From: Bacteroidales bacterium
Lineage (GTDB): Bacteria; Bacteroidota; Bacteroidia; Bacteroidales; UBA932
Assembly (NCBI GenBank): GCA_024401855.1
Contig: JAKSKH010000016.1
Span: 1-46,895 of the forward strand
Length of the DNA stretch: 46,895 bases
Direction of reading: 5' to 3'
Shown: positions 843 to 46,895 of the stretch, one piece after another
How positions within the stretch are numbered: position 1 is the stretch's first letter
Layout of the letters: each line of letters starts with the position of its first letter
Made by a program: the position numbers and the translations under genes
The notes under the pieces: model-generated
Databases searched by the model: none
What the model saw: the letters and a program-made list of their open reading frames with translations, nothing else
What the model was told of the DNA's origin: nothing

Positions 843-1955
843 TTATTCCGCCGATTCTCTGAATTTTGACGGGGACATACCCGTCACTTTCGTAAAATTC
901 CTATAGAAAGTGCTCACGTTAGAGTAGCCCGCCATATCGGAAATCTCCTCCATCGACAAGTTTTCTTTCTGCAGGAGCCTCTTGGATTCCTCCACACGCA
1001 GGCGGTTGACAAACGACATGAACGTCTCCCCGTAATGGTAATGGAGATAATCCGAGACATATTTCGAATTTACACCTATCCTCGTTGCCAGGTCGATCAG
1101 ATTGACATTCTGTTCCAGATAGAACTTGTCTTCCACCAATTTCCCGATGCGGGATTGGATTACGTCGTTTGCGACAGGAGTTCTCATCCTTTCCGCCTGC
1201 TGTTGCGCCATCTTCCCGAGTTCCTCCGCAGTATAGCGGACACGGCATACGCACAGTGCGGCGATTGCATAGAAAAGGACTGACACGACAGCCTGCAACA
1301 CCGGAAGCCAGGACGGCAATACGCTCCGGGAAATGAAACCGGACACGCCAAGGATAATAAGCCGCAATCCCATAAGCGAAAGGATAGAGACAACAGGTAT
1401 CAATGTACGTGCGTTAAGGTCGGAATAGTAATTTTCAAGAGATTTCAGATAACCGGACAGATTTATTATGCTGAATACCTGTATGAAAAGATACTCTGCC
1501 AGATACAGGGCATATGCCGTCCTGTCCAGGGTCAGCAGGACTGAGACTCCCGTGCTTACTGACTCTGAACGACCCTGAATCAGACGGAAGAAAACTTCTC
1601 TGTCACTGGGGGTTATGCCTGACACTACCGGCAGATAGACGGCCAGGAATATGACAGCTGTCTGAAAAATCCACAAATTCCGGCTGCGTATTCTCTCTTC
1701 CCGGAGAAGAGGCCGGACGGCAAGATAGTAAAAAGCCGGCGTGACCAGCAACATAGCCAGATACAGCACATATACCGGCAGATGGAATGTCTCTGCCCTG
1801 TAGATTAGAGATATGTTCAACAGCGAAGTGAGCCCTTCGAACAGAAATGTGAACCCCATTGCTTTATGGAAGCGGCGAAGGGAAGGGCAGGAAACAAAGA
1901 TATATGTTACTGCCAGTATGGCTGCGAAAGCCGGTATATATAGCCAAAGACTCAC
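843..1955 (-). CDS. AraC-family regulator with N-terminal membrane domain
   Basis: The N-terminal 230 residues contain about six to seven hydrophobic segments. The C-terminal 100 residues form a double helix-turn-helix of the AraC type: ATRIGVNSKYVSDYLHYHYG is the first helix pair, and SMEEISDMAGYSNVSTFYRNF with the closing TGMSPSKFR is the signature half. The product is therefore probably a membrane-bound sensor that regulates genes directly. I place the start at GTG 1955, because a perfect TATCTTTG box ends 4 nt upstream; the frame can be read back only to a TTG at 1973 that lies inside or upstream of that box. This gives 370 residues. Neighbours do not reveal a target; the small membrane pair downstream is a candidate. 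Confidence 0.85.
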   Translation of the reverse strand: MSLWLYIPAFAAILAVTYIFVSCPSLRRFHKAMGFTFLFEGLTSLLNISLIYRAETFHLPVYVLYLAMLLVTPAFYYLAVRPLLREERIRSRNLWIFQTAVIFLAVYLPVVSGITPSDREVFFRLIQGRSESVSTGVSVLLTLDRTAYALYLAEYLFIQVFSIINLSGYLKSLENYYSDLNARTLIPVVSILSLMGLRLIILGVSGFISRSVLPSWLPVLQAVVSVLFYAIAALCVCRVRYTAEELGKMAQQQAERMRTPVANDVIQSRIGKLVEDKFYLEQNVNLIDLATRIGVNSKYVSDYLHYHYGETFMSFVNRLRVEESKRLLQKENLSMEEISDMAGYSNVSTFYRNFTKVTGMSPSKFRESAE

Positions 1956-1959
1956 AATG

Positions 1960-1967
1960 CAAAGATA
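1960..1967 (-). promoter_or_regulatory. -7 box TATCTTTG four bases before the AraC-type GTG start
   Basis: TATCTTTG on the minus strand is a perfect TAnnTTTG match. Only four bases (CATT) separate it from GTG 1955, so the transcript would be leaderless or nearly so. The same spacing occurs at mutS and at the glycosyltransferase gene. Confidence 0.6.
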
Positions 1968-2163
1968 ATACAATCAGGCGATAGCGGAAGCTATAATACG
2001 CATAGTCCGCTAATTTTCTGTACCGAATTAGTTTCGTCCGTATATGCGGACAAAACTTACTCGGATATTGGAACCGGCTGACGAACTAAGTTTGCGGCTC
2101 ACCACCGCCCTGTCATGGTCAGAGTGTGTCTGCTGGACATGCTGAGATTGGAATGCATCAAAA

Positions 2164-2186
2164 AAAGCACCTGCCGGAGGTGCTTT
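2164..2186 (-). terminator. Rho-independent terminator (possibly bidirectional)
   Basis: AAAGCACCT and AGGTGCTTT pair over 9 bp around a 5-nt loop. Read on the minus strand the hairpin is followed by a run of T (the A run at 2160-2166), directly behind the stop of the frame ending at 2190. It would end transcription of the XRE/pseudogene unit. On the plus strand the T run is short. Confidence 0.7.
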
Positions 2187-2189
2187 CTG

Positions 2190-2774
2190 TCAAATATGAG
2201 GTATAATGTGTGGTGTTGGTGTGGGTTGTGTATAGAAATCACTGCTGCAATATTGTTTTGTTCTCCCACAAGAACATTCGAAATACATCCTGGTATGAGT
2301 CGTATTTTCATAATAGGGAAAAAACACCTTATCTCCATTCTCCACTATCTCCACATTCCATTCATTCCACCAGAAAGATTCTTCCACCGGAACCCAGTAA
2401 CTTCCAGTAGAAGTAGCCTCTCCAGGTTGAGGCGCCCCTGGATTCATACACGTGACATAATACATTGCTCCACATTCACAGGTGTATTCTATTGTGACAG
2501 CAGAAAGACCGTCTGTCACCTCTGGTTCCGTGACTTTTTCATGCGAGATGGTGACGAATGCCGTTGCCGAACCCGCTCTTGGTCTGGACCGGAGAGAAAA
2601 CGGCCTTATGGATGAACCTTTCAGTGTCGGACAGAATCTCTGCGTACTTCGCAGGTGTCACTGATATGTCAAGGTAAAAATTGGTGCTCTTATCCCCACC
2701 GCCTCTGAAGTCTTCGGTTCCTTGACGGTCCCGTCATCAAAGTCCGGAACTATGCCATAGCAAACTTCATACAC
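2190..2774 (-). pseudogene. Frameshifted hypothetical gene downstream of the XRE regulator
   Basis: Three minus-strand pieces in different frames read like one broken protein. Piece one starts at GTG 2774 inside the XRE gene (VYEVCYGIVPDFDDGTVKEP). Piece two, in another frame, contains GGGDKSTNFYLDISVTPAKY and AEILSDTERF. Piece three contains TAFVTISHEKVTEPEVTDG and then a Cys-rich tail (CECG, CSCG), ending at 2190 before the terminator at 2164-2186. Only piece three forms a 109-residue open frame of its own, with a GTG start at 2519. I do not recognise the family. Position and overlap suggest it was co-expressed with the XRE protein. Sequencing or assembly error is an alternative to true decay. 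Confidence 0.4.
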
Positions 2775-3055
2775 GATATCCCGAGTTTCACTTCTATATC
2801 AGCAACGCTTTTGAAAGAGAAATTGGTATTGCCTGAAAGGATGCGGCTGACATATTGAGGGGATACGCCGAGTTTGGCGGCTACGTCCGAACGGCTCAGC
2901 CCGTTCTCCTGCATATAGTCAACAATCGACATTGCGACACCCCGTGACCATTTGAGCCACACTTCATTCTCCTGACGCCATTTGGCATCTTCTGTAAAAG
3001 TTGAAGGCATCTCGCTCTGATGAGCCTCCAGAAATTCCAATGTTTTCTGTTTCAT
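2750..3055 (-). CDS. Small XRE-family helix-turn-helix regulator
   Basis: From ATG 3055 the product is 101 residues. The C-terminal half is a helix-turn-helix of the Cro/C1 type: LSRSDVAAKLGVSPQYVSRI is the HTH core and LSGNTNFSFKSVADIEVKLG the following helices. The N-terminal half is a polar helix resembling the leader of HigA-like antitoxins found in Bacteroidetes. The frame can be extended to 3097, but a TACCTTTG box at 3067-3074 lies inside that extension, so 3055 is preferred. A perfect 16-bp palindrome sits just upstream (3094-3109) and is the likely self-operator. The downstream gene appears broken, so any partner may be lost. No HigB-like toxin is visible upstream. Confidence 0.75.
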   Translation of the reverse strand: MKQKTLEFLEAHQSEMPSTFTEDAKWRQENEVWLKWSRGVAMSIVDYMQENGLSRSDVAAKLGVSPQYVSRILSGNTNFSFKSVADIEVKLGISCMKFAMA

Positions 3056-3066
3056 CAGTTTAGATA

Positions 3067-3074
3067 CAAAGGTA
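3067..3074 (-). promoter_or_regulatory. -7 box TACCTTTG of the XRE gene
   Basis: TACCTTTG on the minus strand matches TAnnTTTG and lies 11 nt before ATG 3055. It supports the shorter start for the XRE protein. Confidence 0.5.
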
Positions 3075-3093
3075 TGAAAAAGAATCAAATCTC

Positions 3094-3109
3094 GCAACTT
3101 ATAAGTTGC
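3094..3109. promoter_or_regulatory. Perfect 16-bp palindrome, likely XRE operator
   Basis: GCAACTTATAAGTTGC equals its own reverse complement. It lies 20 bp upstream of the -7 box of the XRE gene, in the -33 region, where a bound dimer would block RNA polymerase. This is the usual layout for self-repressing XRE proteins; binding is inferred. Confidence 0.55.
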
Positions 3110-3262
3110 AAATTCAAAGATTGTCGGGCAAACTTCTCTTTTGCCGAATTATACTTAACTGCCCCCGAAAGAATCGCGCTCACGCGCCACGTTAGAGTAA
3201 CTTCCCATAGGTCGATTATTTTTAAGACGAATTAAATTGTTAAACAAAATACCGTGAATTTC

Positions 3263-3525
3263 GCTGTAAGCCGGGTCACGGAGTCCCGTTGTGTACCCCT
3301 CGACAATGTTGGAAGAGGTTTCCTTGGGTTGTCAGCAACACTGTTCCTACCCTTCAGAACTGTTTAATCACTGACCGCAGGGTCCGGGACTGGGATAAAC
3401 ATCCCGGAGTGCCTATGTATTCTCAACCAACGTAGTTCGGCGGCTGAACCGCTTCACTGAGTCTGGTCAACCGGGCTTTCGGTCTTCCGACCTCAAGTCC
3501 ACGAATTCATTCGTGGGTAGTTGAC
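3263..3525. other. Structured non-coding stretch; possible IS200/IS605-type end or unknown RNA
   Basis: No credible reading frame covers this stretch; all six frames are broken within short distance. It is rich in perfect short stems: TCCGGGA/TCCCGGA (3383-3389 with 3402-3408), GGTC/GACC around a four-base loop (3481-3492), and CCACGAA/TTCGTGG (3499-3516). The last hairpin followed by GTAG and TTGAC (3521-3525) looks like the right end of an IS200/IS605 element, where such hairpins and guide RNAs occur, but no TnpA or TnpB is present. On the minus strand ACCCGGCTTAC near 3263-3276 recalls the 3' conserved core of RNase P RNA, but the other RNase P core elements are missing. The identity is open. 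The sequence from 3110 to 3262 holds nothing I can name. Confidence 0.35.
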
Positions 3526-3562
3526 GGGCATTGATGGATTCAATGGCGTCATCTATCCAAAA

Positions 3563-4107
3563 TCAGTGCACGATCCATTCATCGACCGTTATCGGCTCGA
3601 ACGGATTGCTGTCGATCTTGAACTTGATGGCTTCAAATAAAGTTGATTTATCTGCTCCGGGATAATGATCGTAATCCAACTCCTCCCCGCTTCCGTAGAA
3701 CTTCACGTTGATGGGATAGTATGAGGAGCACCTTTCAATGAGCTCATTGTCCCAGCCGGTCTTCTCGTCGAAGACCGCGGTGGCCCCGGGAATGGTCGGC
3801 AGCGTGACCTTCACGGCGGAATGCGCCACGTCGGCGGGTTTCCAGTCCGCGCCCCACTTGTCGACATGGCCCACGTACTCGTTCTTGTCGGAGGTGACGC
3901 CCCCGGTGTTGAAGTAGACATACACGGACCTGCCTTCGGTGTCTCCCTTGCGCAGGGCTATCGTCTTGCCGTCGGAGATCATCGTCTCCCCCGCATCATC
4001 CAGCGACAGACCGAGATATCTGTCATGCTGTCAGCGGTACTTTCCTCCAGGCAGGGCTTCGGGAAAAAGACGGCCGCGAGCTTGCACGAGGTGTTCGGAT
4101 ATAACAT
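3563..4107 (-). pseudogene. Frameshifted hypothetical gene
   Basis: An open frame of 139 codons runs from ATG 3982 to a stop at 3563 and contains GRSVYVYFNTGG and KTGWDNELIERCSSYYP. Read upstream, its frame continues sensibly (RYLGLSLDDAGETM) to a stop near 4033. A different frame from ATG 4107 (MLYPNTSCKLAAVFFPKPC) runs up to the same point, around 4020. The two look like one protein of about 180 residues broken by a frameshift. The family is not recognised. It lies beside the structured stretch at 3263-3525 and may belong to a decayed mobile or phage-like insertion. The frame from 3982 could also be a real short gene. Bases 4108-4216 hold nothing I can name. Confidence 0.4.
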
Positions 4108-4216
4108 AAGATTTCTTCTCTGCGGAGAAGGGACTCTTCGGGATGAGGCGACAGATGAAGGAAAAAAAGGGGTATTTAAATTTCAATAATGACAAACGAA
4201 TTACATCTTGACGAGT

Positions 4217-38213: not shown

Positions 38214-38245
38214 TTTGGATATTTTGGAAATAAAGCGTATATTTG
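38214..38245 (+). promoter_or_regulatory. Promoter of the rplC operon (-33 TTTG, -7 TATATTTG)
   Basis: TTTG at 38214-38217 and TATATTTG at 38238-38245 are 20 bp apart, a near-ideal Bacteroidetes promoter. The leader of about 55 nt to ATG 38306 contains a small hairpin (CCGCA/TGCGG, about 38250-38264). It shows that the ribosomal cluster starts at rplC here. Confidence 0.75.
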
Positions 38246-45632: not shown

Positions 45633-45878
45633 ATGGAGTACGAAGAAATCGTAAAGAAGGTGCAGGCCATCATAGTTGACAAACTTGGTGTGGAACCTTC
45701 CGAAGTTACTGAAACCGCAAATTTCACAAATGACCTTGGAGCAGACTCTCTTGATACCGTAGAGCTCCTCATGGAGTTCGAGAAGGTATTCGGAATCAAG
45801 ATACCCGATGAGGAGACAAGTACAATTGCAACAGTAAAAGATGCATATGACAAGGTAGCAGAGAAGCTTGCAGAATAA
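45633..45878 (+). CDS. acpP: Acyl carrier protein
   Basis: The 81-residue acidic protein carries growing fatty-acyl chains on phosphopantetheine. The attachment site is Ser39 in [16 protein letters not shown]. fabF, often its partner, does not follow: a terminator comes 21 bp after the stop, so acpP is alone. Confidence 0.97.
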
Positions 45879-45899
45879 AGTTCAACGGACTGACTGAAG

Positions 45900-45936
45900 A
45901 AAAGCGGCTGATAAGCGATTATCGGCCGCTTTTCAT
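45900..45936 (+). terminator. Rho-independent terminator after acpP
   Basis: AAAAGCGGC pairs with GCCGCTTTT over 9 bp, with an inner TGATAA/TTATCG stem and a GCGA loop. The A and T runs on both sides make it usable from either strand. Confidence 0.85.
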
Positions 45937-45975
45937 TTCATTTTCATTCAAATGTGTTTTTAAAATAAAATTTTA

Positions 45976-45983
45976 TATATTTG
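45976..45983 (+). promoter_or_regulatory. -7 box TATATTTG of the repeat-lipoprotein transcript
   Basis: TATATTTG in an AT-rich stretch matches TAnnTTTG. It would start a transcript with a leader of about 190 nt before ATG 46181, far longer than at other genes here. Confidence 0.55.
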
Positions 45984-45991
45984 AAAGACTG

Positions 45992-46128
45992 ACTGTCCAC
46001 TCAATCGGACTCCAAGGGGAGATTGCAGGACAGTACGGACAATAGAAATAAGGACGTTTCACGACGTTTACCTTCTGATTGAAGACTTGGCGTTTTTCAA
46101 GTTATGGTAACGGTGTGACTCCCACGTC
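45992..46128 (+). ncRNA. Structured leader or small RNA with two strong hairpins
   Basis: Hairpin 1 (45992-46034): ACTGTCC/GGACAGT, CAAT/ATTG and CTCC/GGAG are stacked around an AAGG loop. Hairpin 2 (46053-46128): GACGT/ACGTC, TCAC/GTGA, and CGTT/AACG with ACC/GGT stack around an inner ACTTG/CAAGT hairpin (46085-46102). TTTT follows hairpin 2, so it could end a small RNA or act as an attenuator. Transcription would begin at the box at 45976-45983. I recognise no known riboswitch class. No reading frame of note lies inside. Confidence 0.5.
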
Positions 46129-46149
46129 TTTTGTGTGCATATTCGGCTT

Positions 46150-46158
46150 GGGGGGGGG
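46150..46158 (+). repeat. G9 homopolymer tract in the 5' leader
   Basis: Nine consecutive G lie 22 bp before ATG 46181 of a surface lipoprotein. Tracts of this length slip during replication and are a known source of phase variation in other bacteria; an effect here is inferred. Confidence 0.7.
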
Positions 46159-46180
46159 TCGAAAAATAACTGTCAAATAC

Positions 46181-46895
46181 ATGAAACATGTACGAATTCT
46201 AATTCTGATGCTCTTGTCAGTAGTTTTGTCATGCTGTGACCCGAAACTGCAGCCGGTAACGCTGTCGCCGCCGACTCCACCGACCCCTGTCCCACCGGAG
46301 CCTGTGGAGAAAATCTATGTCATGATTAGTGATGCAAACTTCAAATCTTACATCCTGAACAATTTTGACGCGGACAAGGACGGAGGCATTGACGATTCCG
46401 AGGCGATGGCGGTCAAAACAATCGATTGTAAGAATCTTGGAATTTCTTCTCTGGAGGGTATCCGTTGCTTCTCAAATCTTGAAACTTTGGACTGCTCCGG
46501 AAACAATCTGGAATCGCTTGTCCTTTGCGGTACGGGAGAAACCAAGGCAAATGTCCCTGAAGGAGACTGCAGCAAACTGAAAGCAATTGAATGTTCAGGC
46601 AATAAAATCGCTTCTGTGGAGATTTCCGCCTGTGCGGAACTGGAGACTTTTGCCGCCTCGAACAATCAGTTGTCAGAAGTTGACTTGAGCGGCAATCCGG
46701 CTATAGAAAGCGTTAATGTCAGCGGCAATTCACTGACTGATATCGATCTGAGTTCAAATCCCGCCCTTGTGGATGTGGACTTGAGCGGCAATTCACTGAC
46801 AGATGTCGACCTGAGTGGTAATCCTGCGCTCGAAAGCATCAATGTCAGCGGCAATTCACTGACTGATATCGATCTGAGTTCAAATCCCGCCCTTG
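46181..46895 (+). CDS. Leucine-rich-repeat surface lipoprotein, partial (C-terminus beyond window)
   Basis: The frame is open from ATG 46181 to the right edge (238 codons). A lipoprotein signal (LLSVVLSC, Cys16) is followed by a Pro-rich spacer (SPPTPPTPVPPEP). Next is an EF-hand-like loop, DADKDGGIDDSEA, then leucine-rich repeats of 21 residues in which LSxNPALxxxDLSGNSLTD recurs. The last repeats are nearly identical in DNA. The form fits exported BspA- or internalin-like adhesins of Bacteroidetes. The opening EF-hand may bind calcium. The gene has its own promoter and a structured leader with a G9 tract. Confidence 0.8.
   Translation, partial: MKHVRILILMLLSVVLSCCDPKLQPVTLSPPTPPTPVPPEPVEKIYVMISDANFKSYILNNFDADKDGGIDDSEAMAVKTIDCKNLGISSLEGIRCFSNLETLDCSGNNLESLVLCGTGETKANVPEGDCSKLKAIECSGNKIASVEISACAELETFAASNNQLSEVDLSGNPAIESVNVSGNSLTDIDLSSNPALVDVDLSGNSLTDVDLSGNPALESINVSGNSLTDIDLSSNPAL
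46715..46895 (+). repeat. Tandem 63-bp repeats coding 21-residue LRR units
   Basis: The 55 bases from 46715 to 46769 recur without change at 46841-46895, exactly 126 bp (two units) later. The middle unit is a close variant. Such near-identity favours unit gain and loss by recombination. The array continues past the window edge. Confidence 0.9.

Follow-up and report, generated by a model that had tools for sequence, protein, structure and literature searches.

We think it somewhat probable that a run of nine G residues in the 5′ leader of a lipoprotein gene, at the end of the DNA analyzed here, is a simple-sequence contingency tract that works like the one upstream of uspA1 in Moraxella. By this analogy, the tract would be expected to vary in length, and its length to change expression of the gene downstream. 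The DNA (referred to as the window, 46,895 nt in its entirety) is the whole of contig C8 of the source genome. Slippage control of this lipoprotein was part of the original prediction, and support for it comes by analogy and from evidence gathered across the source genome and the genus. The features of the locus are as follows.

45633 to 45878, + strand: acpP, encoding acyl carrier protein (Pfam PP-binding, NCBIfam acyl carrier protein), the upstream neighbor, with its own terminator
45899 to 45934, + strand: intrinsic terminator of acpP, a 16-pair stem with a T tail
45976 to 45983, + strand: -7 box TATATTTG, the likely promoter of the lipoprotein gene, with no clear -33 element
45992 to 46034, + strand: first leader hairpin, with an outer stem of 7 bp (ACTGTCC, 45992-45998, with GGACAGT, 46028-46034)
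46053 to 46128, + strand: second folded stretch, with closing stem GACGT (46053-46057) and ACGTC (46124-46128), followed by TTTT (46129-46132)
46142 to 46163, + strand: hairpin predicted by RNAfold, with six of the G residues in its loop
46150 to 46158, + strand: the G9 tract, with 22 bases between it and the ATG at 46181
46181 to 46895, + strand: LRR lipoprotein gene with a MKHVRILILMLLSVVLSC-C signal and LRR_4 repeats, cut by the contig end

The -7 box, both hairpins, the TTTT, the G9 and its 22-base spacing all lie where the original prediction had placed them. We take TATATTTG to be a Bacteroidetes-type -7 box; a pattern scan of the + strand of 45851-46200 for TAnnTTTG found this occurrence only, and it comes after the acpP terminator. 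The lipoprotein gene is incomplete, since the contig stops inside a 63-bp repeat, and its NCBIfam matches, internalin-like and others, all fall far below the cut-offs.

Phase variation by slippage is well known. At the window locus, the G9 would gain or lose G residues during replication by slipped-strand mispairing, and sister cells would then carry tracts of different lengths. Tract length would set the amount of lipoprotein in a graded rather than an on/off manner, probably via transcript level or the efficiency of initiation. The tract of uspA1 is said to lie in the 5′ leader as well, about 30 nt before the ATG. As in the window, eight to twelve G residues precede a surface-protein ORF in Moraxella catarrhalis, and there their number alters transcript level: G9 gives a low and G10 a high level in two strains, and a third strain has another threshold (extracts of PMC7302503). 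The two loci differ in phylum and gene and in the long leader that lies upstream of the window tract; moreover, the effect of length is known for uspA1 and, like variation in length, predicted here.

With tracts of 6-12 G, the local RNA energy computed by RNAfold changes little (-10.2 to -11.8 kcal/mol). Such a small shift, for a tract that sits 3′ of the promoter, means that an effect of length is explained by neither structure nor promoter spacing. An effect on transcription or transcript level, as with uspA1, is more likely than a block of translation, given this nearly flat profile and the finding in Prevotella bryantii that a hairpin of 9 kcal/mol placed at -21 left translation undiminished (PMC3155529, in extract). 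A G-rich element 22 nt before an ATG stands out in this phylum, since Bacteroidetes are described in the same extracts as lacking Shine-Dalgarno signals and keeping their leaders unstructured near the start (PMC3155529).

The source genome (2.03 Mb, 85% complete) contains exactly four G9 runs, two G8 runs and none of 10 or more. As background we used same-genus loci picked without regard to G runs (276,172 bases), in which G-or-C runs of length 4, 5 and 6 numbered 890, 163 and 21 and none reached 7 or more. Extrapolating the decay of this background, or that of the window, gives 0.4-1.2 expected runs of 9+ in the source genome, against which the four G9 observed have a Poisson P of 0.0006-0.03. 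The window G9 is thus longer than background, as a contingency tract should be, and its position 22 nt before a lipoprotein ATG suits an effect on surface-gene expression. Two of the four, those in the window and on contig C34, lie in lipoprotein 5′ leaders. The runs outside the window are placed as follows.

Contig C34: G9 in the leader of another lipoprotein gene, with 62 nt to the ATG and with the start of a TATATTTG box 48 nt upstream
Contig C23: G9 within an Acyl_transf_3 ORF, the reading frame being kept with nine G
Contig C31: G9 located 20 nt upstream of a TAAATTTG box (likely a promoter), before a Bac_transf sugar-transferase gene

Of the other two frames at the C23 run, one meets a stop immediately and one runs on for about 25 codons. 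The C23 acyltransferase and the C31 sugar transferase presumably act on surface glycans. On C34, a single small lipoprotein gene has a G8 at 79013 and the G9 at 79364 close to it, on opposite strands and separated by ~350 bases.

Across 121 genomes of the genus (own included), we counted 505 G8, 295 G9 and 103 G10+ runs, with lengths read from MAG consensus sequences. The counts fall more slowly from G8 to G10+ than run counts do in the background loci, and some of the longest runs look like contig-end artefacts (G28 in L096, for example). We then classified 87 distinct G8, 94 G9 and 70 G10+ runs; 5 of 92 G8 loci were dropped, either because their flanks were the same as those of another or because no run was located. 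In this non-random sample (each genome contributed one locus at first and later at most a few others, hand-picked from listings), G9 runs were more often intergenic than G8 runs (63/94 versus 31/87, p 2.9e-5; G10+, 45/70), more often followed directly by TA (50/94 versus 12/87, p 2.1e-8; G10+, 25/70) and more often set in flanks of less than 45% GC (59/94 versus 23/87, p 1.3e-6; G10+, 43/70). By a crude ad hoc rule for calling signal peptides, 31 of 57 genes starting within 400 nt after an intergenic G9+ run encode one; for the remaining genes of these loci the figure is 69 of 288 (p 1e-5). Against this, when intergenic runs alone are compared, the share is similar for G8 (6/13) and G9 (17/35), and for G10+ it is 14/22. 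The pattern G9-N12..40-ATGAAR gave 65 raw matches (55 distinct places, spread over 43 of 300 genomes) versus 16 raw matches for the reversed control; part of this excess is expected because ATGAAR is itself a favored start. A pyrimidine tract upstream of the G runs was considered as a general rule and rejected: a rank test of upstream against downstream sequence gave p 0.0015, whereas neither a cut-off of 6 or more (p 0.26) nor a comparison of G9+ with G8 (p 0.32) showed a difference, and the feature is therefore retained only for the leader family described below.

The G tracts of the genus occupy three placements: signal-peptide codons, the promoter region and, as in the window, 5′ leaders. 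Among scorable runs, 9 of 74 G8, 3 of 69 G9 and 3 of 49 G10+ fall in signal-peptide codons (7, 3 and 1 of them in frame), and 25, 11 and 4, respectively, lie within long ORFs (18, 6 and 1 in frame). That the G8 and G9 tracts in ORFs and signal peptides are mostly in frame, as plain coding runs would be, is a counterpoint to the slippage reading. One of the two apparently out-of-frame G8 runs in signal-peptide codons (L167) was rejected as a wrong choice of frame, the run sitting in an intact ORF. At three loci (L173, L340 and L345), poly-G in the signal-peptide codons of likely secreted proteins is out of frame at the assembled length.

Within 30 nt after the runs, 12 TAnnTTTG boxes start for 194 G9+ runs and none for 90 G8 runs, a comparison biased by the inclusion among the 194 of loci fetched for a following ATG. 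At two loci (L398 and L399), three G9 runs lie inside a TTTG-TAnnTTTG spacer of 19-22 nt, which, judging from the sequence, would be the arrangement classically associated with transcriptional control by slippage. The window tract is not of this kind, as inspection by eye and the TAnnTTTG scan found no usable -33/-7 pair around its G9.

Some of the leaders form an RNA family. Thirteen of them share a pyrimidine tract, G9-11 and TATAAC..TAATCAA, and most also have a GC-rich hairpin; from these 13 we built a covariance model, R1. Loci assigned to the family are L102, L242, L086, L085, L124, L216, L220, L228 and L349-L378. In the R1 architecture, the pyrimidine tract pairs with G7-G11 and is followed by TATAAC..TAATCAA and then by the GC-rich hairpin. 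The model matched 55 of 250 genomes of the genus at E 0.01 or better, 9 of the 55 being sources of training sequences, and 36 places scored above 50 bits, including the 13 used for training. In a covariation alignment of 28 distinct rows (9 of the 29 matches being training sequences), which was fitted to the model and hence leans towards it, 89% of cells pair, and both sides changed in 50 cells (shuffles, 15.5; slid controls, 7-21). Covariation is seen at each of the five pairs in the second hairpin. Rfam had no match at the R1 leader in the loci tested. A script located no run in 1 of 30 loci.

The number of G residues differs (G7/G8/G9) in four of seven leader pairs whose flanks are at least 80% identical, the four representing two leader groups, while the three pairs of equal length (G9) form a third. 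Leaders with differing tracts are 96-100% identical over the nearest 80 bases, and one pair is identical at 80 of 80. These differences in length were seen between species and at loci other than the window.

R1 leaders sit before short ORFs and lipoproteins; in one group (L349, L351 and L358), their place is taken by a gene with a CxxxCxxC motif. At nine loci (L102, L350, L353, L355, L359, L362, L366, L376 and L377), short ORFs of ~43-61 codons lie between the leader and a lipoprotein-like gene and loosely share LYxSPE..E(V/M)K.EGVICxS. These could possibly be precursors of modified peptides, although this is a guess. A second recurrent leader (L090, L107, L218 and L329) has a CCCTYTCC-like tract, ~10 nt, G9-10 and a TAAATTGTTGAATATTAATTAGTTA-like stretch, with the ATG of a secreted-protein or lipoprotein gene 24-32 nt after the tract.

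We also examined the part of the window leader that lies upstream of the G9, which had been thought to stand out as unusually long and folded. The hairpins are present, but the fold is not clearly beyond chance. RNAfold gave a z of -1.20 for the 206-nt leader, 24 of 200 dinucleotide shuffles being equal or better, and about -1.6 for a 148-nt core, a value equalled by 10% of 156 + strand window segments; z for the whole fold ranged from -1.2 to -1.7. Folded alone, the first hairpin reached -2.4 to -3.6 and the second folded stretch about -1.5. The terminator-like hairpin at 46112-46128 is weak, with 6 pairs, 3 of them GC, and a TTTTG tail. None of 4227 Rfam models matched the window leader at its gathering cut-off, and the best sub-threshold match (frnS, E 0.016, 45895-45982) lies over the acpP terminator and is unconvincing. 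Elsewhere in the window, Rfam identified a HEARO RNA (RF02033, 3288-3525, - strand, 131.8 bits); neither of the two ORFs of at least 150 aa in 1200-4200 looks like IscB.

Searching 151 same-genus genomes (own and 150 others) by blastn, we found no homologous leader in the 150 others among the matches listed, and plasmid and phage sequences gave no match. Again among the matches listed, with at most five candidates scored per genome, 26 genomes (own included) matched with an E of 0.1 or lower. The other genomes account for 26 matches, all short (17-50 nt), of which 15 fall in the promoter box (query 1-33) and 11 elsewhere; all three of these 11 that were examined for ORFs lie inside them. The best match (L002, 78% over 50 nt, E 0.0017) lies antisense to a lipoprotein-like ORF and was attributed to chance. 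The LRR lipoprotein itself has matches at E 1e-8 in 109 of 400 genomes (own included), the best-scoring other being 39% identical; no close orthologue was found among the 400, and five distant loci were retrieved among genome contigs. Of 29 relatives' loci retrieved via pnuC, 25 contain acpP. Inspection by eye of the sequences listed shows a short hairpin with a T tail behind acpP in most relatives, and neither the LRR lipoprotein nor the window leader 3′ of acpP in what was listed for the 25.

The stretch upstream of the G9 is best read as the ordinary long leader of an accessory gene behind the acpP terminator. The original prediction had instead proposed an attenuator, a riboswitch or an independent small RNA, here taken to span 45990-46132. 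Although such an element would account for two hairpins with a weak terminator-like end and TTTT, and would fit the low z of the first hairpin alone, we regard it as very unlikely, given an ordinary whole-leader fold, the lack of any Rfam family at cut-off and the failure of blastn to find a homologue in 150 other genomes, phages or plasmids. It would be more surprising still if translation began upstream of 46181, making the tract coding and slippage a shift of frame: the frame is indeed open from a TTG at 46079 across the G9 into the lipoprotein, and an in-frame GTG offers another start, but no in-frame ATG lies upstream and the lipoprotein signal starts exactly at the ATG at 46181.

Two further explanations concern the G9 itself. 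It could be a chance or neutral run without function, as might be supposed for a single locus with no homologue found, given that G8-G9 runs occur in coding sequence too and that the highest estimate expects 1.2 runs of 9+. We consider this unlikely: four such runs are present where 0.4-1.2 are expected, they fall at two lipoprotein genes and at two enzymes with a likely role, as we infer it, in surface glycans, and Bacteroidetes as a phylum are reported to avoid homopolymers of eight or more strongly (extracts of PMC4060949). Alternatively, the poly-G could have a structural role in the leader RNA, either pairing with a poly-pyrimidine stretch in a helix or forming a G-rich loop, and would be recognized by a protein, the ribosome or another RNA; changes in length would then be tolerated rather than exploited. 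The R1 family demonstrates that covarying leaders with a conserved poly-G strand exist in the genus, and the window G9 also folds into a hairpin by RNAfold. The window leader is nevertheless not an R1 member (the best score in the window, 9 bits at 38240, lies outside the leader), no member was found in its own genome, and the R1 training leaders make up only 13 of the 164 classified G9+ runs. A structural role at the window locus therefore seems distinctly unlikely. Slippage of a contingency tract remains the reading that we prefer for the window G9.

More tentatively, the genus may possess a slippage system of wider extent, in which poly-G tracts lie in the leaders of surface genes, in promoter spacers and in signal-peptide codons, and which includes a leader RNA, unmatched in Rfam, where a pyrimidine tract pairs with a poly-G strand of drifting length. 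We see this as possible rather than probable; the window G9 would then be a switch of the leader type. Comparable poly-G loci, with homopolymers in ORFs and before genes, are described in Campylobacter, Helicobacter and Neisseria (extracts of PMC2823697, PMC8355987 and PMC5320596). Those organisms belong to other phyla, and the promoter-spacer tracts of this genus would sit in Bacteroidetes TTTG/TAnnTTTG promoters. Within the same order, gut Bacteroidales show phase variation of surface genes through invertons, by recombinase-mediated DNA inversion as opposed to homopolymer slippage (PMC12632263, in extract). Among the open-licence papers searched, the matches listed included nothing on poly-G slippage in Bacteroidales, and nothing was found that joins Cryptobacteroides with phase variation.

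If the wider proposal is correct, slippage would act beside, or instead of, the inversion known from Bacteroides. Extracts of two reviews describe phase variation in gut Bacteroidales as DNA inversion. Slippage at glycan enzymes, surface lipoproteins and TonB-type receptors would add to this another source of variation between cells, one that is easy to measure, in an uncultured, gut-type Bacteroidales genus rich in species.
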